Assembly: GCA_028697145.1 (NCBI GenBank)
Contig: JAQVFR010000009.1
Coordinates: 36,489 to 100,488 of the forward strand
Direction of reading: 5' to 3'
Length of the DNA: 64,000 bases
Origin: Actinomycetota bacterium
Lineage (GTDB): Bacteria; Actinomycetota; Geothermincolia; Geothermincolales; RBG-13-55-18
Position numbers and translations under genes: made by a program. Of this stretch, positions 7,002 through 40,418 are shown one piece after another; position 1 is the stretch's first letter; the number at the start of each line of letters is the position of its first letter. The notes below the pieces were generated by a model that saw only the letters and a program-made list of their open reading frames with translations, was not told the origin of the DNA and ran no database searches.

Positions 7002-7886
7002 TCACAGGCGCTTGAGAAAAAGGCGCACCGAGCGAGCCAGGTTCGCGTCGTTGAGCCTCCTGCTCGCGCGGTGGAGCCAGTCCCCGGCATAGGTCTCCGG
7101 ACATACCGGCACCACGCCCCGGTTCTCCTCCACGGCCCTCACCACCGCGGCCGCGACGCGGTCGGGGGTGTAATTGCGGCGTGCGTAGATGCGGGCGATG
7201 CGTTTCTGCAGCTCCCCGGGCGTCGATCTTTCCGTCCTCGAGCACAGCTTGGCCGAGCGGGTGATCGGCGTATCCACCACCCCCGGACAGATGGCGGAAA
7301 CCCCGATGCCGTGCGGAGCCGCCTCGGCCCGCAGGGTCTCGGAGAATCCGACCACGGCGTACTTGCTGCAGCAGTAGGCGGTCATGAGGGGAAGGGGGGC
7401 CAGTCCCGCCCCCGAAGCGGTGTTGACGATATGCCCGCCGCCGCCCTGGGCGATCATGCGCGGGTAGAAGAAATGGCAGCCGTGAAGGACCCCCCGTAGA
7501 TTGACCCCCAGGGCCCATTCCCAGTCCCCCAGCGAAACGTCCTCGAAGCGCCCTGCTATGCCGATACCGGCATTGTTGCAGAGGACGTCGGCCCGTCCCA
7601 TCTCGCGGTAGACGTTGTCGCAAAGGCTCTCCACGTCCGCCGCCACGGAGACGTCGACCACCTGCGCGTAAGCGGTGCCGCCCATGGCCGTCAGCTCGAG
7701 CCGGACCCTTTCCAGGGCCCCGGCGTTGATGTCGGCGACGGCCGTCCTCGCTCCCCGCCGGGCGAATGCGAGGGCGATCTCCCTGCCGATACCGCTGGCG
7801 GCGCCGGTGACGACCACAACCTTGCCCTGAAAATCCCGCAACCCGGTTGCCTCCCTATCCTCCCGGCGCTTGATGTTATCACCCAT
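7002..7886 (-). CDS. Short-chain dehydrogenase/reductase (SDR), tandem paralog
   Basis: TGAASGIG, NNAG, YCCSKYAVVGFSE; strongly similar to the 6036-6893 product; start reassigned to MGDNIKRRED. Confidence 0.92.
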   Translation of the reverse strand: MGDNIKRREDREATGLRDFQGKVVVVTGAASGIGREIALAFARRGARTAVADINAGALERVRLELTAMGGTAYAQVVDVSVAADVESLCDNVYREMGRADVLCNNAGIGIAGRFEDVSLGDWEWALGVNLRGVLHGCHFFYPRMIAQGGGGHIVNTASGAGLAPLPLMTAYCCSKYAVVGFSETLRAEAAPHGIGVSAICPGVVDTPITRSAKLCSRTERSTPGELQKRIARIYARRNYTPDRVAAAVVRAVEENRGVVPVCPETYAGDWLHRASRRLNDANLARSVRLFLKRL

Positions 7887-18586: not shown

Positions 18587-18680
18587 CCCCTAAGCAGATC
18601 AACCCTAAATATACCAATAGGATAGCACGGCCTCGTATGGAACAAAAACGCTGCGGCCGGAACGGTGGAGAAAAAAGGAG

Positions 18681-19066
18681 AGGGAGCCAGCCTGTAAGCC
18701 GGATCCTGTACCCGGACTGAACCGGGCGGTGGTCATCCATCTGGGACCGCCGTTACCGGCGGCCTCGAGCGGCCCACCCGAGCCTCGAGCGCTGCGGGCC
18801 ACAGCATCGGCTCCTATTTGGCCTTGCTCCGGGAGGGGTTTACCTAGCCGGCCTGTCACCAGAACCGCTGGTGGGCTCTTACCCCACCTTTTCACCCTTG
18901 CCTGCCGGCACCGCATGCGCAGCACCGGCGGGCGGTTTCCCTTTCTGTGGCACTTTCCGTCGGGTCACCCCGCCTGGGCGTTACCCAGCTCCCTGCCCTG
19001 TGGAGTCCGGACTTTCCTCGAGAGCGGCTGCCGCCGCGCCCGCGACCACCCGGCTGACTCCCTCCT
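18681..19066 (-). ncRNA. rnpB: RNase P RNA (class A)
   Basis: Minus strand: GGGAGTCAGCCGGGTGGTCGC...GAGGAAAGTCCGGACTCCACAGGGCAGG...GACGGAAAGTGCCACAGAAA...AGGTAAACCCC...ATAGGAGCCG...ACAGGATCCGGCTTACAGGCTGGCTCCCT, all hallmark RNase P blocks. Confidence 0.97.
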
Positions 19067-29692: not shown

Positions 29693-30793
29693 TTGGCGGG
29701 CAAGGAAAAAGTGCTCATACTCGAGGCGCGCTACGACGCGCCGCTGCTCGAGAAGCGCATGCGCGAAGTGCTCGATGCCTTTCCCCTCGAGCTGGAGGGC
29801 AAGAGCGTCCTGGTCAAGCCGAACGTCCTGGGGCCCTGGCCCGGGGAGAGCGGCGTCATCACCCACCCCATGTTCGTGAAGGCCGTGGTGGCTTCGCTGC
29901 AGGAGAGGGGCGCGCGGGTTCAGGTGGGCGACAACCCGGGGATGCGCGGTTACGGCCGGGTCGGACGTGTTCTCAAGGACACCGGGCTGGAGGAGGCGCT
30001 GGGTGATGACTTCGTGAACATCACCGCCTCACCGCGCCGCGTCCCCATACGGTCGCGCTTCGTGGATGAGACGACCGTCTCGGCCCAGGTGCTCGACTGT
30101 GACGTACTCGTCTCCGTCCCCAAGTTCAAGACCCACGTGAGCACCATCATCACCGGCGCGGTCAAGAACAGCTTCGGGTTCCTGGTGGGAGGAGAGAAGG
30201 CGCGCATGCACGCCGTAGCCCCGCGTCACCGCGACTTCGGCGAGCTCATGGTGGACATCTACCAGTTGCGCGTCCCGGACCTGGTGATCATGGACGCTGT
30301 GACGGTGATGGAGGGCAACGGCCCCTCATGCGAGGACATCCGCGAGGAGGGCAAGATGCTCGCGGCGCGCAACGGCATCGCGCTGGACACGGTGATGGCT
30401 TACATGATGGGCATCGAACCTTCCAGGGTGCCGCTGCTGGTGACGGCGGGAGAACGGGGCCTCGGTCCGGTCAGCATGGACGACATCGAGGTGCAGGGTC
30501 CCCTCGAGAGGTTCAGGGGGTTCAAGCAACCCTCCACCGTGCCGCGCATGGCCTGGACCGCGCCCTTCCAGGGCCTGGTCTTCAAGCTCGTCTCCCGCCA
30601 TGCCCTGCGCGCCGACCCCGGGCGCTGCACCGGGTGCCGCACCTGCGAGAAGGGCTGTCCCGTCGGCGCCATAGAGGTGAAGGACTTGCCCTCGTTCGAC
30701 GCCGCAAAGTGCATCAACTGCTACTGCTGCTACGAGCTGTGCCCCGAGCACGCCATCGTCCTCAACCGCTTCATCCGGCTCATCCAGAGGTAA
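29693..30793 (+). CDS. DUF362 domain protein with C-terminal 2x[4Fe-4S] ferredoxin
   Basis: DVLVSVPKFKTHVSTIITGAVKNSFGF; CTGCRTCEKGCPVGAI...CINCYCCYELCPEHAI. Confidence 0.92.
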   Translation: MAGKEKVLILEARYDAPLLEKRMREVLDAFPLELEGKSVLVKPNVLGPWPGESGVITHPMFVKAVVASLQERGARVQVGDNPGMRGYGRVGRVLKDTGLEEALGDDFVNITASPRRVPIRSRFVDETTVSAQVLDCDVLVSVPKFKTHVSTIITGAVKNSFGFLVGGEKARMHAVAPRHRDFGELMVDIYQLRVPDLVIMDAVTVMEGNGPSCEDIREEGKMLAARNGIALDTVMAYMMGIEPSRVPLLVTAGERGLGPVSMDDIEVQGPLERFRGFKQPSTVPRMAWTAPFQGLVFKLVSRHALRADPGRCTGCRTCEKGCPVGAIEVKDLPSFDAAKCINCYCCYELCPEHAIVLNRFIRLIQR

Positions 30794-32606
30794 TATAATC
30801 GCGGCACAGGTCGACGCCCTGCTTGGGGTTGAGGGTCCAGGCGTCCGCGCCAACGTAGTCCCTCACCTGCGCGGTTGTGGGCCCTCCCCCGATGATCACG
30901 AAGCGCCCTTCCCGCAGGCCGCTTTCGGCCAGGGATTCCACCACCTCGCGCATGGAATCGAAGGTGGGGGTGATAAGCGCGGACATGGCCACCACGCGCG
31001 CGCCGCTCTCCGCCACCTCCCGCACGAAGGCGTCCGGGGACACGTCCACCCCCAGGTCGCGCACCTCGAAGCCCCCCACCCGCAGCAGGGTGGCGGTGAT
31101 GTTTTTCCCGATGTCGTGGATATCGCCGCGCGGCGTCCCTATGACCACGGTACCCAGGGTGGGTCCCGCCGTGCCCCGCTCCAGCATGGGCTCCACGCGC
31201 GCCACCACTTCCTTGAAGATCTCCGCCGAGATGATCAGCTCGGAGAGGAAGTATTCCCCCGAGCTGTAAAGCTCCCCCACCAGTTCCATGCCCGCCCTGC
31301 ACTCATCCAGGATGCGCAGGGGGTCCGTGCCCTCAACGACGGCCCGCTCGACCAGTTCCTCCACTTCCTCGTAGCGCAGCTGCGTGAAGGCGCGCGCGAC
31401 GGCGCCTTCCGGCATGCTGACCTCGACCGCCTCCCTGCCCGCCGCAGCCGGGCGCGGCTTCGCGACCCCCGTCTTCTTTCCGCGGTAGGACTTGCCGGTA
31501 TCCACCATGGCCCGCAGGTTCTCCGCCTTCACGTTCACCGGGCACTCGCACCCCGTGGTGAGCATGAATCCGCCGCCGTCCCCCACCTCGTCGATGAGGC
31601 GGCGGCAGTAGGCCTCGACGTCTTCAGGGCTCCCCAGGGTGAGGAGAGCGGCGGGAACGTCGCCGCTGATGCACGTGTGCCCGCGCAGTATCTCCTTGGC
31701 CTGGAAGATATCGGTCATGCCGTCGAGGTCGCACACGCACTTCCCCGCCGGGAGGCGGGTGAGGTACGGCAGGTTCATCCCCCAATCGGTGTCGAAGTGC
31801 AGCCAGGGCAGGATGCCCTCCGCGATAAAGGCATCTACGTACTCCTGGAGGAAAGGCCACTCGAAGCGCTCGAACAGCTCCAGGGGGTAGTAGAAACCGG
31901 ATCCCCGCTCCAGGACGATGAAGGCGGTCATCTTGCCGTTGTTCCCGCACACCTCGACGGCGTTGGCGATGAGGTCACCGCAGGAGGCGCGCATGGCCGC
32001 CTCCACCTTGTCCGGCACCTCGTAGAGGTCACGGGTGAACTCCACCAGGGTGCGGCAGAGAGAGAAGGCCATCATCACCGAATCCACGGCGACACCCAGG
32101 AACACAGGCATGCCCTCAGCCTCGCAGATCCTCATGTCCTCGGTGTAGAAGCGGTTGGAGAATCCCTGCATGGCCACGAGCTTCTCCCACGATTTACCGC
32201 TCATGGACTCGTAGTTCTCCTCCCAGAAGGCGTTCCATCCCAGGGCGGCGATCTTGTCGTAATCCTCGCGGGAAAAGAGGGGCCTCTCATCGATCTGGTA
32301 CAGGGCGTCCTCCGGGAGCTGCCGGCCGGGGATGAGGTTGCGCACCGGCGCGCCGCAGAACTTCCCCGGCAGCATGGGGTAATAGTAGTTCGGCTTCGAT
32401 CCCACGTCGTAGCCGAACTCCCGGAAGCACCAGATGAGCGCCTCCCTCGCCGCATCGTGGTTCCTCCAGGCCTCGCCCTGGGTGATGCCGTAAAGGCGAG
32501 GCGCCGAGGTCACCAGGATGGGGAAGACCGGGTGGCGGTCCACGGGCTCCAGGGCGATGGCCGCCTGCATCCTCTCCTCCACGGTCATGGTCTCCTCGAT
32601 CATCAA
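30780..32606 (-). CDS. Fused uroporphyrinogen-decarboxylase-like methyltransferase and corrinoid (B12-binding) protein
   Basis: URO-D-like region (LHFDTDWGMNLPYL...TGCECPVNVKAENLRAMV) then B12-binding region with GDIHDIGKN, GVDVSPD, IGGGPTTAQ. Confidence 0.9.
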   Translation of the reverse strand: MMIEETMTVEERMQAAIALEPVDRHPVFPILVTSAPRLYGITQGEAWRNHDAAREALIWCFREFGYDVGSKPNYYYPMLPGKFCGAPVRNLIPGRQLPEDALYQIDERPLFSREDYDKIAALGWNAFWEENYESMSGKSWEKLVAMQGFSNRFYTEDMRICEAEGMPVFLGVAVDSVMMAFSLCRTLVEFTRDLYEVPDKVEAAMRASCGDLIANAVEVCGNNGKMTAFIVLERGSGFYYPLELFERFEWPFLQEYVDAFIAEGILPWLHFDTDWGMNLPYLTRLPAGKCVCDLDGMTDIFQAKEILRGHTCISGDVPAALLTLGSPEDVEAYCRRLIDEVGDGGGFMLTTGCECPVNVKAENLRAMVDTGKSYRGKKTGVAKPRPAAAGREAVEVSMPEGAVARAFTQLRYEEVEELVERAVVEGTDPLRILDECRAGMELVGELYSSGEYFLSELIISAEIFKEVVARVEPMLERGTAGPTLGTVVIGTPRGDIHDIGKNITATLLRVGGFEVRDLGVDVSPDAFVREVAESGARVVAMSALITPTFDSMREVVESLAESGLREGRFVIIGGGPTTAQVRDYVGADAWTLNPKQGVDLCRDYITSG

Positions 32607-34429: not shown

Positions 34430-35287
34430 CTAATCGAATACGTAGAACAGGTGGCGGCCGTACCTCTCGACCCCGAAGCCGTCGATGAACTCCTGCGTGC
34501 CCTCCTCGAAGAGGAAGGCATCGAAGTCCCGGGCTCCCTGGATATTCGTATCGGGAAAGACGGCGGGATTGGTGACGATCACGGAATAGACGTTGAGCAG
34601 GCCGGCATCCCCCTCGACCATCACCTCCAGGTCGAGCGCCTCGTCCAGGACGATAAAGGTGGCGCGGTCGGTGAGGGTGTAGGCGCCCTCGTCCTCGGCG
34701 ATCCTCAGGGTATAACCCATGCCCTGCCCGCTCTCCCGGTACCAGTCTCCCCCGGGCTGGATCCCCGCCCGCTCCCACACGCTCATCTCCATGGCATGGG
34801 TGCCGGAAGCGTCGCCGCGGGAGAGGAAGGACCCGGCGTCGCCGCTGATGCGGGCGAACGCATCGGCTGCGTCCGTCATGCCCCTGATGCCCGCCGGATC
34901 GGAGGATGGCCCCACGATGATGAAATCGTTGTACATGACCTCGCGGCGGCTCTCCCCGTAGCCGGCATCCATGAACTCCTTTTCCGCCTTGGGCTCGTGG
35001 GTGACGCTCACGTCGGCCTCGCCCTGCCTGGCCATGAGCAGGGCGGCGCCGCTTCCCACGGCCACCGTCTTCATGCGGTAGGGATATCTTTCCTCGAAGC
35101 GCAGCACCAGCTCGTCGAGGAGTCCGGAATCGAGCACGCTGGTCGTGGTGGCCAGGATGAGCCCGCTCCTCTCCTCCTCCGGTATCCCCGGAGAGCCGCA
35201 GCCGTAAAAACTCCAAGCGAGCACGACCGTCGCCAGCAGGGCGAGGAGGACGAGGGCGGAAAGCGCGCTTGCGCCTCTTGCCTTCAT
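34430..35287 (-). CDS. Tungstate/molybdate ABC-type substrate-binding lipoprotein (TupA-like)
   Basis: LILATTTSVLDSGLLDELVLRFEERY; GEADVSVTHEPKAE; SRGDASGTHAME; LTDRATFI. Confidence 0.9.
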   Translation of the reverse strand: MKARGASALSALVLLALLATVVLAWSFYGCGSPGIPEEERSGLILATTTSVLDSGLLDELVLRFEERYPYRMKTVAVGSGAALLMARQGEADVSVTHEPKAEKEFMDAGYGESRREVMYNDFIIVGPSSDPAGIRGMTDAADAFARISGDAGSFLSRGDASGTHAMEMSVWERAGIQPGGDWYRESGQGMGYTLRIAEDEGAYTLTDRATFIVLDEALDLEVMVEGDAGLLNVYSVIVTNPAVFPDTNIQGARDFDAFLFEEGTQEFIDGFGVERYGRHLFYVFD

Positions 35288-35811: not shown

Positions 35812-37346
35812 CTCTCCTCCATCACGCTGTAAAGGTAACCCAGCAGCGGCAGCACCGCCTTGAGCGGCTGCAGGCGCAGTGACGATACCGCCAGCCAGCT
35901 CACGCAGAACGCGCCCTCCGGGCCGCTCAAGATCGCCTGCGGCGCCTCGGCCGCGGTGTCTTCCCCGGTTTCGCCCGGTTTCTGCTCAGGGGCGGTCTCC
36001 TCCGCCTGCGGCAGTTCCTCGGACGGAGCGGGCTGCGGCTGCGGCTGCGGCGCGGGCGCCGGTTCGCTCACCGCGCCGTAAACCGCCAGCGAGCCCTCGG
36101 GAACGGCTCCCGGCGCGGGCGGCTGTTCTCCAGCCGGCAGGGGCAGCACCTCAACCGCGTAGATCATCCTCGCGCAAAGCGGCGTGTTGGCATCGCCCCC
36201 CTGGTCCTTCGGCCCCGGGACGCTCTGCGGCACGATGAGCCGCAGGCTCCCCTCGTCGGCGCCGAGGGGAGTGCCGGCTTTCTCGTAGGCGATGATCACC
36301 TTCATACCTCCGCTGTAGACGGTCCTCACCTGGTTCAGGGTGAGGGAGACGGTGTACCCGTCCCTCGCCTTCACCTGCACGCCGGTCGCGCCAGGTGCCA
36401 GGCTCATCTTCTCTTCGATGAGATAGGAGAGGGGTACGCCCTTGTAGTCTGCCTCGTAATAGGTGAAGGGCTCCTGGGACTTGAGGAAGGTGTAATGGCC
36501 GGAGAAGGAGGGCATGGAGGCGAGTTCTCCCTTGGAGAAGATGCGGCCGCCCGGGTCCGCCCGGCAGCTTCCCCCGTCCCGTACGCACAGGGAAAGGGCT
36601 GGGACCAGCACCGACACCGCCACTGCAACCAGCACTATCTGCATTAGCGCCTTGGGTCTTTTCCGGCTCCCTTTTCCGCCGCCGACAAGTGAGACGATCG
36701 CCGCCGCCAGGACGACGATCCCGGCGCCCAGGAGCAGAAGCGGCAGCAGGATGGAGAAGGGATAGACCGCGGGAATATCGCCGTACACCCATATTTCGTC
36801 CACCGGCACCTCGGTCGCGTCGAAGGCCGCGCTGCCCTCCTCCACGGGCCCTATCTCGATGAGCCTGAGGTTGGAGACCCAGGACGGCTTGTTCACGTGT
36901 TCCTCGCCGTATTGCGGCATCACCAGCCTGAGCGGGCCGGATCCTTCCGGTTCGGGCTGCAGCGCCTCGCCGTTCATCTCCCAGGCGAGCATGGGGTAGA
37001 GGCCTTTCTCGTTGGCCTGTTTCAGATCGGACAAGGTGAGCACAGTGCCCACCGCCGGCCAGAAATAGCCGTCCGGCGCGATCAACTTCACCTGCGCGCC
37101 ATCGTCGTCCACCCCCACATCCTCCAGGAAGGTGGAGAGGACGACCCCCTCGAACTCGGTTTCCTCTATCGTCTGCCAGTTGTTGATGCTGCGGTATGCG
37201 GCCCTGGTGGAGGGCCTGGACAGCACCTCGTCGTAGCCGGCAACCACGTGATCCCCGGCGCCGACCTGGCGCACGATGAACAGGGAAAGCGCGGCCGCGG
37301 CGAGAATGGCGGCAATGACGAAGAGCAGGAGCGGCTTTCTTCCCAT
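35808..37346 (-). CDS. Membrane-anchored protein with two molybdopterin-oxidoreductase-like domains
   Basis: VVLSTFLEDVGVDDDGAQVKLIAPDGYFWP...PLRLVMPQYGEEHVNKPSWVSNLRLIEI and PLSYLIEEKMSLAPGATGVQVKARDGYTVSL...GSLRLIVPQ; start ATG with AAAGGAGGG. Confidence 0.75.
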   Translation of the reverse strand: MGRKPLLLFVIAAILAAAALSLFIVRQVGAGDHVVAGYDEVLSRPSTRAAYRSINNWQTIEETEFEGVVLSTFLEDVGVDDDGAQVKLIAPDGYFWPAVGTVLTLSDLKQANEKGLYPMLAWEMNGEALQPEPEGSGPLRLVMPQYGEEHVNKPSWVSNLRLIEIGPVEEGSAAFDATEVPVDEIWVYGDIPAVYPFSILLPLLLLGAGIVVLAAAIVSLVGGGKGSRKRPKALMQIVLVAVAVSVLVPALSLCVRDGGSCRADPGGRIFSKGELASMPSFSGHYTFLKSQEPFTYYEADYKGVPLSYLIEEKMSLAPGATGVQVKARDGYTVSLTLNQVRTVYSGGMKVIIAYEKAGTPLGADEGSLRLIVPQSVPGPKDQGGDANTPLCARMIYAVEVLPLPAGEQPPAPGAVPEGSLAVYGAVSEPAPAPQPQPQPAPSEELPQAEETAPEQKPGETGEDTAAEAPQAILSGPEGAFCVSWLAVSSLRLQPLKAVLPLLGYLYSVMEER

Positions 37347-37667
37347 GCACCCTCCTTTCCTAGCACGGGAGGCCCGCCCGTTTCCCGGCGAACCCTGTCG
37401 GCCTCTCCCCATGGCTGGAGCTTTAGGGCAAGAGGCTCGGAGAGCGTTTCTGCCGCCAAGATAGCACGGAACGCGGCCGTGCTGTCAAGCGGCTGTTTAC
37501 GGCTTCGATCCAGCCGGATACCGGCGCCACTGGCATGAATTACCCATTATCTACCATATCTTTTCATGCCGCAGCAAGCCGTTCATCCGCCGCTTCGGGT
37601 CTTATGCCCACTATGAAGGGTGCGGGGGATGCGTCCCGGGCGGGCGGCGCTCGGGCGGCGCTCGGTC

Positions 37668-37903
37668 TTGACAACCCCGAAGGAATGATGATAAACAGGC
37701 ACCGTACGGTTTTCCGAGCAGTCTGTCCTAAGGCGAAACGCTAAGGAGGGCTGCCGATAGGGTAGGATTGGAAACGGTCCTGCCTCCCGTGCTTGGAAAG
37801 GGAGACCAGGGAACAGGCTTTGCGAGGCGTCCTTTCCTCATGGGGTGGACGCCCCTTTCTTTCTGGTACGCCGTCCTTTCCGGCACGGAGAGGGTGGCTT
37901 TTT
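37668..37903 (+). promoter_or_regulatory. Promoter plus structured 5' leader with intrinsic terminator (riboswitch/attenuator candidate)
   Basis: TTGACA-N16-GATAAA; P1 AGTCTGT(37720-37726)/ACAGGCT(37813-37819); hairpin GGCGTCC/GGACGCC; terminator GCCGTCCTTTCCG-GCA-CGGAGAGGGTGGC-TTTTT. Confidence 0.7.
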
Positions 37904-37961
37904 AATGGGCCTCCTATGGTAAGTATTGGTATCCAGTAACCGGGCGAGATGGGAGGAGAAA

Positions 37962-40418
37962 ATGCGAAGATATCTGATCGTTCTGCTGGGAGTATTTCTT
38001 TGCCTCGCGCTGAGCGCTCCGCTGGCCGCGGTCTCGTCGTCGCCGGCGGCTGGGGGAGAGTTTCAAGCGGACGCTATTTCCGCGGCTTCCCCCAACTACC
38101 GCACCTTCACCGAGGCCGACCTCAAATCCATGCGGCGGGTGGACGGTTACCTGTGGGGAGGCCATTACACCTGCTCCAAGAACTCCGATCCCTTCACCTA
38201 TTTCGAGCAGGACTGGAAGGGCGTAAGCCTCTCTTACCTGCTGGAGGTGGAGACCGGCATCGGGGCCGACACCACCGCGATCAAGGTCATAGCCGACGAC
38301 AACTACGCCGTCACCCTTACCCTCGACGAGATGAGGAACAACAGCAACACCCGGGGCATGCCAACGCTGCTGGCTTACGTGAACGGTGCCCCGAGCGCGG
38401 ACAACCCGCACGCGCCCGATCCGGTGGGAGCGCCGTGGGTGACGCCGGTTGCGGCTGGCCAGGAACTGGGAAGCGGTGAGGGCCCCTTCCGCCTGGTCAT
38501 GCCCCAGAAGGTCGAGGGGCCCGACCCCCGTAACGAGTCCTACACCCCGGCCGGCACGGGCACGCCCAACTGGAACAAGGCGGTGCAGCGCGTGAGGGCT
38601 ATCGAGGTGCAGCCGGTCCCGCCGGGGATACCGCCCATCGATCCCGCCGCCATCCCGCCGGGCGAGATAGTGGTGTACGGCAACATCCTCAACCGCAAGA
38701 CCTTCACCGTGGACCAGCTGAAGAGCATCAAGCCGGTAACTGCGAGCTATCCATGGAAGAACAAGTACGACGAGACCGGGGAGACCGCATGCACCGGCAT
38801 AGCGGTGGATTACCTCCTGGACTCCGTGATCGGCCTCCAGGACACGGCCAGCGACGTGAAGTTCTACGCGTCTGACGGATGGGGATTCAAGGACACCTGG
38901 ACCCTGGACGAGATCAGGGCCGCCTACGGCGATGACGCCCTCAAGTTCATGCTTGCCTGGAACAAGGACGGGGAGGACCTTGAGCCGGAACCCGACGGCG
39001 ACGGCCCCATCCAGATGATCAAACCGCAGTTCGCTCCCGACGACACCAACATGAGCAAGTGGCTGAAGTGGACGCGTGTCGTGGAGGTGCTTCCCCTGGG
39101 AGAGGATCCCGGCATCGACCCTACGCTGGTGCCGGCCGACCGCATCATCGCCTGTGGGGCCATCGACGCGGGCAACGTGCCCGACGAGTGGTACTTCGCC
39201 GAGGGATGCACGGGATTCGGCTTCGAGACCTGGCTCTCCATCGCCAATCCCAATCCCTGGCAGACCAAGGTCATCGTGGACTACTTCATCGAGGGGGAGA
39301 CGCCGCAGCAGCAGGAGCTGTTCGTGGCCCCCCGCAGCCGCACCACCGTCAACGTCGAGGGAGTCATAGGCGCGGGTAAGAACGTCTCCGCCCGGGTCGA
39401 GGGCTATCACGGCGATTCCATCGTGGTTGAGCGCGCCATGTACTGGGGCGGCCGGGCCGGCGGACATTGCGCCTCGGGCGTGAACTCCGCCGCCGCCACC
39501 TGGTACCTGGCCGAGGGCTGCACGGCCGGAGGGTTTGAGACCTGGGTGCTGCTGCAGAATCCCGGGGATACCGCGGCCAACGTCGACATCACCTATATGA
39601 CCGAAGCCGGAGAGAAGGCGGGCGCGCAGGTGGTGGTGCCCGCGAAGTCCCGCAAGACCATCGATATCTCCACCGACGGCGTCGCCGACACCTGGAACGT
39701 GTCCACCATGGTGGACTCGGACCAGCCCGTCATCGCCGAGCGTGCCGTTTACTGGGGCGGCCGTAAGGCGGGCCACTGCGAGACCGGCGTGACCTCGCCC
39801 GCCAGTGGGTGGTACCTGGCGGAAGGTGCCACCGACGGCGGCTTCGAGACCTGGGTGCTGGTTCAGAACCCCAACGACAACCCCGTCCTCGTCGACCTGA
39901 CCTTCATGACCTCGACGGGGCCCATGGACGGGCCGCAGGCTTTCGCCATCCCGGGCAACTCGCGCTACTCCTTCAACCTGGGCGAGTCCGTCGTCGACTA
40001 TAACGTGTCCACCATGGTGACCTCCGAGGGAGGGGACATCATCGCCGAGCGCGCCATGTACTGGAGCGGCAGGGCCGGCGGTCACGACGCCCACGGCCAG
40101 CAGCAGGCGAAGTTCAGGTCCTTCCTCGCCGAAGGGGCCACCGCGGGCGGCTTCGAGACCTGGGTGCTGCTGCAGAACCCGGGCACCTGCGACGCGACGA
40201 TTAGCATAACCTACCAGACCGAAGCCGGAGCCATCGAGAGGGAGCCACTGGCGCTGGAGGCGGGCAAGAGGACCTCCATCGACGTGGGCGCGGAGATAGG
40301 GGAGACCTACGACGTCTCTACCCTGGTCCACTCCTCCGCCCCCATCGTGGCGGAGAGGGCCGTGTACTGGAACGGCCGCGTGGAGGGAAGCTGCTCCACG
40401 GGTTACTCCGCCTGGTGA
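37962..40418 (+). CDS. Large secreted protein: two molybdopterin-oxidoreductase-like domains plus four DUF5719-like WYLAEG repeats
   Basis: Signal peptide MRRYLIVLLGVFLCLALSAPLAA; DWKGVSLSYLLEVETG...; WYLAEGCTAGGFETWVLLQNPG repeats ending VSTMV.SD.PVIAERAVYWGGR. Confidence 0.85.
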   Translation: MRRYLIVLLGVFLCLALSAPLAAVSSSPAAGGEFQADAISAASPNYRTFTEADLKSMRRVDGYLWGGHYTCSKNSDPFTYFEQDWKGVSLSYLLEVETGIGADTTAIKVIADDNYAVTLTLDEMRNNSNTRGMPTLLAYVNGAPSADNPHAPDPVGAPWVTPVAAGQELGSGEGPFRLVMPQKVEGPDPRNESYTPAGTGTPNWNKAVQRVRAIEVQPVPPGIPPIDPAAIPPGEIVVYGNILNRKTFTVDQLKSIKPVTASYPWKNKYDETGETACTGIAVDYLLDSVIGLQDTASDVKFYASDGWGFKDTWTLDEIRAAYGDDALKFMLAWNKDGEDLEPEPDGDGPIQMIKPQFAPDDTNMSKWLKWTRVVEVLPLGEDPGIDPTLVPADRIIACGAIDAGNVPDEWYFAEGCTGFGFETWLSIANPNPWQTKVIVDYFIEGETPQQQELFVAPRSRTTVNVEGVIGAGKNVSARVEGYHGDSIVVERAMYWGGRAGGHCASGVNSAAATWYLAEGCTAGGFETWVLLQNPGDTAANVDITYMTEAGEKAGAQVVVPAKSRKTIDISTDGVADTWNVSTMVDSDQPVIAERAVYWGGRKAGHCETGVTSPASGWYLAEGATDGGFETWVLVQNPNDNPVLVDLTFMTSTGPMDGPQAFAIPGNSRYSFNLGESVVDYNVSTMVTSEGGDIIAERAMYWSGRAGGHDAHGQQQAKFRSFLAEGATAGGFETWVLLQNPGTCDATISITYQTEAGAIEREPLALEAGKRTSIDVGAEIGETYDVSTLVHSSAPIVAERAVYWNGRVEGSCSTGYSAW

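Follow-up and report, generated by a model that had tools for sequence, protein, structure and literature searches.

Moco RNAs are a known riboswitch class whose cofactor response was established genetically in Escherichia coli; direct binding of a ligand to these RNAs had not been demonstrated in 2008 (PMC2408646). Members lacking the P3 stem were proposed to sense the tungsten cofactor, and loss of P3 was found to correlate with tungsten genes (Regulski et al. 2008, PMC2408646). The P3-lacking type of Rfam family RF01055 combines the conserved core with P1, P2 with a tetraloop-receptor bulge, P4 with a GAAA loop, and P5; it acts through terminators or Shine-Dalgarno platforms, occurs in several copies per genome, and has neighbors from Mo/W metabolism. 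In Syntrophomonas wolfei, P3-lacking Moco RNAs precede 'sulphite oxidase' genes (PMC2408646). In tandem Moco/Wco riboswitches, multiple elements are found near one promoter region (PMC9481103).

The window analyzed here, a 64,000-nt stretch of an Actinomycetota genome, contains two elements of this family. A scan of the 64 kb with 4227 Rfam families matched RF01055 (Molybdenum, Moco RNA motif) to the leader on the forward strand (73.5 bits, E = 7.6e-16) and to a second site on the reverse strand (76.4 bits), which the first-pass annotation had not mentioned; the curated cut-off is 36 bits, about half of either score. Both alignments span the full model (1-135), and the deletion in each comprises the P3 stem only. 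When the leader was compared with Rfam, including the Moco, c-di-GMP-I/II and cobalamin families, no class except RF01055 exceeded its cut-off there, and the remaining weak matches in the window were chance miRNA and snoRNA families with E near 1. The forward alignment includes P1, P2, P4, P5, the conserved junction and the GNRA loop, and the neighbors of the element are Mo/W transport, cofactor synthesis or cofactor-using genes. By its sequence, the forward leader is a Moco RNA of the P3-lacking type. The first-pass annotation had read it as a transcriptional riboswitch, which the sequence supports well, and had named the Moco motif and set it aside, a step that the match to RF01055 reverses. 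We put at roughly 80% the probability that the leader functions as a Moco-family riboswitch without P3, acting on the transcription of a single gene, with cofactor binding leading to termination. The coordinates of the features are collected in Table 1. The window also encodes a class A bacterial RNase P RNA (18679-19061, reverse strand, 302.6 bits) and a URO-D methyltransferase domain fused to a corrinoid-binding protein (30780-32606, reverse strand).

Table 1. Features of the divergent Moco RNA locus, in window coordinates
Feature	Position	Strand	Details
Mop/TOBE molybdate/tungstate-binding protein, 69 aa	34122-34331	-	TIGR00638 85 bits, cut-off 55
TupA-like tungstate-binding protein	34430-35287	-	NF041772 188.6 bits, below equivalog cut-off 400
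Lipoprotein, 175 aa	35284-35811	-	Oxidored_molyb-like
Membrane protein, 512 aa	35808-37346	-	Two Oxidored_molyb-like domains, apparently without metal-ligand Cys
Divergent P3-lacking Moco RNA	37336-37454	-	RF01055 76.4 bits
Predicted promoter of divergent leader	37458-37488	-	TTGACA 37488-37483, TATCTT 37463-37458
Predicted promoter of forward leader	37668-37695	+	TTGACA-N16-GATAAA; TTGACA 37668-37673, GATAAA 37690-37695
Moco RNA, P3-lacking, subtype A	37700-37817	+	RF01055 73.5 bits; covariation over 65 elements
Forward-aptamer helices P1 and P2		+	P1 37708-37715/37800-37807; P2 from 37718-37722/37750-37754
Forward-aptamer P4	37760-37784	+	GAAA loop 37771-37774
Aptamer 3' core (P5 and 3' strand of P1)	37784-37809	+	Putatively doubles as antiterminator strand
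Terminator-like hairpin T1	37826-37853	+	GGCGTCC...GGACGCC, then CCTTTCTTTC; shorter version in terminator listing
Predicted intrinsic terminator T2	37870-37903	+	13-bp stem 37870-37898, then TTTTT
Exported protein, 818 aa	37962-40418	+	Oxidored_molyb (PF00174)-like domains, then DUF5719/WYLAEG repeats

The fold of the forward element was examined among 80 elements taken from the taxonomic class and nearby genomes, nearly all of them P3-lacking. In an alignment of 65 elements of the class, 90% of cells are paired and 325 double-sided changes were counted, whereas shuffles gave 116 and slid partners no more than 133; the covariation score is 0.424 versus 0.160, and six of the eight P1 pairs have changes on both sides. 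The 215-nt forward leader folds 3.6 standard deviations better than its dinucleotide shuffles, none of 200 being as good. Lack of covariation among homologous leaders had been named in advance as evidence against a riboswitch; as far as sequence tells, covariation is strong. Transcription starting 3' of 37903, the other such point, is at odds with a predicted promoter that lies 5' of the aptamer and is conserved, its TTGACA recurring at about the same distance from most of the 13 homologous leaders.

The homologues back a P1 that pairs GGTTTTCC with GGGAGACC. The first-pass annotation had instead closed the structure with AGTCTGT/ACAGGCT (37720-37726/37813-37819). These letters are in place and are not P1: their pairing competes with P2, is unpopulated in folds of the growing transcript, and scores across homologues only marginally above re-assigned partners (P = 0.043). 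We rejected this pairing as P1 and retained it as a weak possible alternative to P2. The earlier fold model went astray because of the wrong closing stem and because the AU/GU-rich P1 of subtype A was overlooked. Several of its other parts recur in the Moco fold, CCTAAGGCGAAACGCTAAGG as part of P2 and GGTAGGA-N10-TCCTGCC as P4, while CTTGG/CCAGG falls outside it; the promoter with its 16-nt spacer and the start codon at 37962 are present as had been described.

The forward element represents a subtype, here called A, with the signature UUUUCCGAGCAG...CUGCCG...GGAARAC. It differs from the described P3-lacking type in having CAG/CUG at the base of P2 and UUUUCC/GGAARAC in P1, and this signature was absent from the roughly 65 elements compared from outside the class. 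P1 is able to form all eight pairs in 12 of 13 subtype-A leaders, though its sequence is unlike that of other subtypes.

Two further differences from the described type are the two successive terminators that follow the aptamer and the target, an exported multi-domain protein; a literature search on two-terminator riboswitches and on the lineage returned nothing relevant. All 13 homologous leaders have two terminator-like hairpins. T2 has the 13 pairs and the TTTTT tract that had been assigned to it, and T1 has the same UCCUUUCC as T2, in this leader and in those of some relatives. Within its 5' arm and loop, T1 also has TCCTTTCC, a complement of the aptamer core. The duplex between the aptamer 3' core and the 5' arm and loop of T2 has a predicted energy of -26.9 kcal/mol, equaled by 1 of 500 shuffles. 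This pairing is kept in every one of the 13 homologous leaders (-16.7 to -28.7 kcal/mol), and in 12 of them at most 4 of 500 shuffles are as good. When cores were combined with the T2 hairpins of other genomes, no clear preference for the own T2 was found (own -24.7, cross -23.9 kcal/mol) because all cores and all T2 hairpins are alike; thus, the case for the antiterminator is one of conserved complementarity more than of covariation. The T2 hairpin has weak covariation in an automatic alignment; the MAFFT alignment of T2 loops is too poor for counts of antiterminator pairs and shows the T2 stem alone. Judged by sequence and energy only, the leader has the parts of a transcriptional riboswitch, namely a terminator and a mutually exclusive antiterminator that shares its strand with the aptamer.

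Full-length folds gave -99.8 kcal/mol for the antiterminator, -97.8 for the terminator state and -92.9 for the aptamer with the terminator. The modeled gap between these states is within reach of ligand stabilization, and a bound ligand together with the tetraloop-receptor contact could reverse their order. Thermodynamic folds differ among homologues, the core pairing with T1, T2 or the aptamer. The proposed mechanism has the following steps: (i) without the cofactor, the core CCCGUGCUUGGAAAGGGA (37786-37803) would pair with the 5' arm and loop of T2, or alternatively with the matching segment of T1, (ii) with the core held by a terminator arm, RNA polymerase would read into the gene for the 818-aa protein, and (iii) a bound Mo or W pterin cofactor would lock P1, P5 and the core in the aptamer, so that both terminators would fold and transcription would stop. 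Conceivably, T1 hands the core over to T2 while the RNA is lengthening, but this is speculation. Since the core is unable to serve the aptamer and the antiterminator at once, ligand binding should favor termination, and the forward leader is probably an OFF switch that halts transcription of the secreted-protein gene when the cofactor is plentiful.

The two Moco RNAs of the window stand back to back, 245 nt apart. In the reverse element, the Shine-Dalgarno sequence AAGGAGG (37357-37351) lies within the 3' strand of P1, 4 bases 5' of the start codon at 37346, the same layout as in E. coli moaA. This placement marks the reverse element as one of the translational type, which would sense a cofactor of the same kind and hide the ribosome-binding site of its operon. 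The molybdate/tungstate cluster that the first-pass annotation had seen next door is real and is this very operon, encoding two Oxidored_molyb proteins, a TupA-like protein and a Mop protein. We infer that both elements are OFF switches; with such control on both sides, their products would fit a response to scarcity of the metal or cofactor, through capture or uptake. The pair resembles tandem Moco/Wco riboswitches in bringing multiple elements near one promoter region, whereas its members are arranged head-to-head, with separate promoters and different kinds of platform. The window genome also contains a tandem of two P3-lacking Moco RNAs (G000:C34:9334-9595, L006), which precedes a FecBCD-type ABC transporter, a radical SAM protein and two unknown proteins. 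In this tandem, the leading element has a terminator of its own, the 5' arm of which (CCTCTCC) is complementary to the 3' strand of P1 in that aptamer.

Moco RNAs were found in 28 of the 31 genomes of the class, including all 19 good ones. The window genome (2.98 Mb, 97.6% complete) has five; three of these, additional to the pair, precede a tupABC-moeA operon and the FecBCD-type transporter. The TupA-, TupB- and WtpC-like proteins of that operon score below equivalog cut-offs, and MoeA was named from its sequence. Most subtype-A copies sit 5' of homologues of the 818-aa protein, and the minus-strand kind sits 5' of homologues of the 512-aa, 175-aa and TupA-like proteins. Eight genomes (G000, G001, G005, G015, G019, G024, G027 and G028) retain the head-to-head pair, with gaps of 81-493 nt, and in another genome, G003, homologues of the 818-aa, 512-aa and TupA-like proteins are collinear behind a single subtype-A element. 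This conserved linkage suggests that the proteins of the paired operons work together.

Several other arrangements were observed in these genomes. At two loci, L123 (~7518-7598) and L116 (~7328-7409), the divergent -35 hexamers almost touch (TGTCAA...TTGACA), so the two transcripts may compete. NiFe hydrogenase small-subunit genes lie 3' of Moco RNAs at L119:4758-5882, L140:435-1547 and L089. In many genomes, a 287-aa protein with no Pfam or NCBIfam match is encoded between a Moco RNA and tupA (L007:8192-9055, reverse strand); by eye, it looks nucleotide-binding and MobB-like.

The matches of the regulated proteins to PF00174 cover just the later, C-terminal part of the domain. In the 818-aa family, Cys at the likely metal-ligand position of domain 1 is invariant in 10 of 10 homologues, and in the 512-aa family the matching place of domain 2 is occupied by Phe, again in 10 of 10. 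The predicted signal sequences of the regulated proteins appear to be Sec-type, not Tat. Sec-type export is unusual for enzymes that are loaded with their cofactor in the cytoplasm. A structure model of the first 394 residues of the 818-aa protein was of low confidence (pLDDT 58.5); Foldseek with this model ranked SorT and YedY first, both weakly (E > 0.01), and a PDB sequence search with the same residues gave nothing useful. OFF control on both sides would favor a role in capturing or handling extracellular Mo/W species over catalysis, and we consider the former the more plausible. Proteins most closely related to the 818-aa protein lie on contigs titled as Candidatus Solincola sediminis or other uncultured Actinomycetota, and weaker, repeat-only matches include Candidatus Geothermincola.

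The P3-lacking elements of S. wolfei are similarly placed before a sulphite-oxidase-type molybdopterin domain; compared with that system, as known from its description, the domains here match the C-terminal part of PF00174, and the copies in the partner operon appear to be without the metal-ligand Cys. The S. wolfei proteins that stood out in 2008 as 'sulphite oxidase' exceptions may be similar in kind to those regulated here.

As for the metal, the reading that both members of the pair are specifically tungsten-cofactor (Tuco) sensors, and so respond to the same metal, has in our judgment somewhat less than an even chance. P3 positions are deleted from the alignment of both elements, in keeping with the association between P3 loss and tungsten genes described in 2008, and the window genome is rich in tungsten enzymes and tungstate transporters: it encodes four aldehyde ferredoxin oxidoreductases and three likely selenoprotein formate dehydrogenases, and no ModA was found in it. 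The collinear run of G003, where TupA lies farther down behind the subtype-A element, points the same way. Against this reading, P3 does not seem to track the metal in the phylum, where elements with P3 stand before TupA in several families. The P3-bearing elements there comprise 15 with TupA and 3 with ModA-like proteins, and the P3-lacking non-A elements 71 and 7, respectively, with no significant separation (Fisher P = 0.39); these counts are approximate, P3 status outside the class having been called by eye from sequence and length. Moreover, subtype A precedes ModA twice and an A-like element precedes MOT1 once.

Individual loci from this survey are of interest in themselves. P3-bearing Moco RNAs directly precede TupA, contrary to the 2008 rule by which P3 accompanies molybdenum genes, at L173, L174, L175, L181, L182, L183, L193, L161, L167 and L178. 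P3-bearing and P3-lacking elements occur in series before TupA at L168 (G156:C5), L172 (G075:C13) and L126 (G020:C20), a possible case of two-input control. In the window genome, three PF00384 enzymes with an in-frame TGA (L146, L147 and L148) are likely selenocysteine formate dehydrogenases.

More doubtful is the proposal that the pair is a two-metal sensor, in which forward subtype A would sense the Mo cofactor and the reverse element the W cofactor; specificity would then depend on features of P1/P2 adjoining the core and not on P3. Within the class, ModA exceeds its cut-off in two genomes and MOT1-like genes do so in two; the elements ahead of both ModA genes and of the strong MOT1 are subtype A or A-like, and the 44 non-A elements that accompany TupA or ModA are all with TupA. 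The Mo-transporter cases of subtype A come from two genomes, the two ModA proteins share 70% identity and could go back to a single origin, and the MOT1 element is A-like in that it has CCG/CGG instead of CAG/CUG. The P3-bearing Mo sensor of E. coli moaA is without CAG/CUG at the base of P2, so CAG/CUG is not a general Mo signature.

It is improbable that a protein or another signal regulates the gene and the Moco-like fold is a mere scaffold: this would suit a class for which direct ligand binding had not been shown in 2008, but the whole conserved core is present, covariation runs through all helices, and most contexts of the elements are related to Mo or W. We give equally little credence to a degenerate aptamer followed by constitutive terminators, with the gene weakly expressed. 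Such decay could be read from the AU/GU-rich P1 and from the fold of the isolated leader, which does not favor the aptamer; yet P1 has compensatory changes in the 13 leaders, which represent several families of the class, and the core has stayed complementary to T2. Assignment to another class, whether c-di-GMP, cobalamin or a novel one, had been left open by the first-pass annotation when it found no class match and is ruled out, RF01055 alone reaching its cut-off at the leader.

Our reading of both elements as Moco-family riboswitches within the known class is well supported by the sequence comparisons, and the pair has been conserved within a bacterial group that is little known. Three features make it noteworthy: (i) the conserved head-to-head arrangement with two kinds of platform, (ii) the predicted use of the core as an antiterminator for two terminators, and (iii) the apparent failure of the P3 rule in this phylum. 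How Moco RNAs discriminate Mo from W has been a question since 2008, and the sole rule on offer, the presence or absence of P3, does not set Mo transporters apart from W transporters in this phylum. At this locus, two P3-lacking elements, one of the transcriptional and the other of the translational type, stand naturally side by side in tungsten-enzyme-rich bacteria; thus, the Mo/W question could be tested with two short RNAs. The exported proteins with sulphite-oxidase-type domains, which the locus connects with scarcity of the metal or cofactor, become candidate capture proteins. If the two members of the pair do sense different metals, one promoter region would balance Mo and W acquisition.
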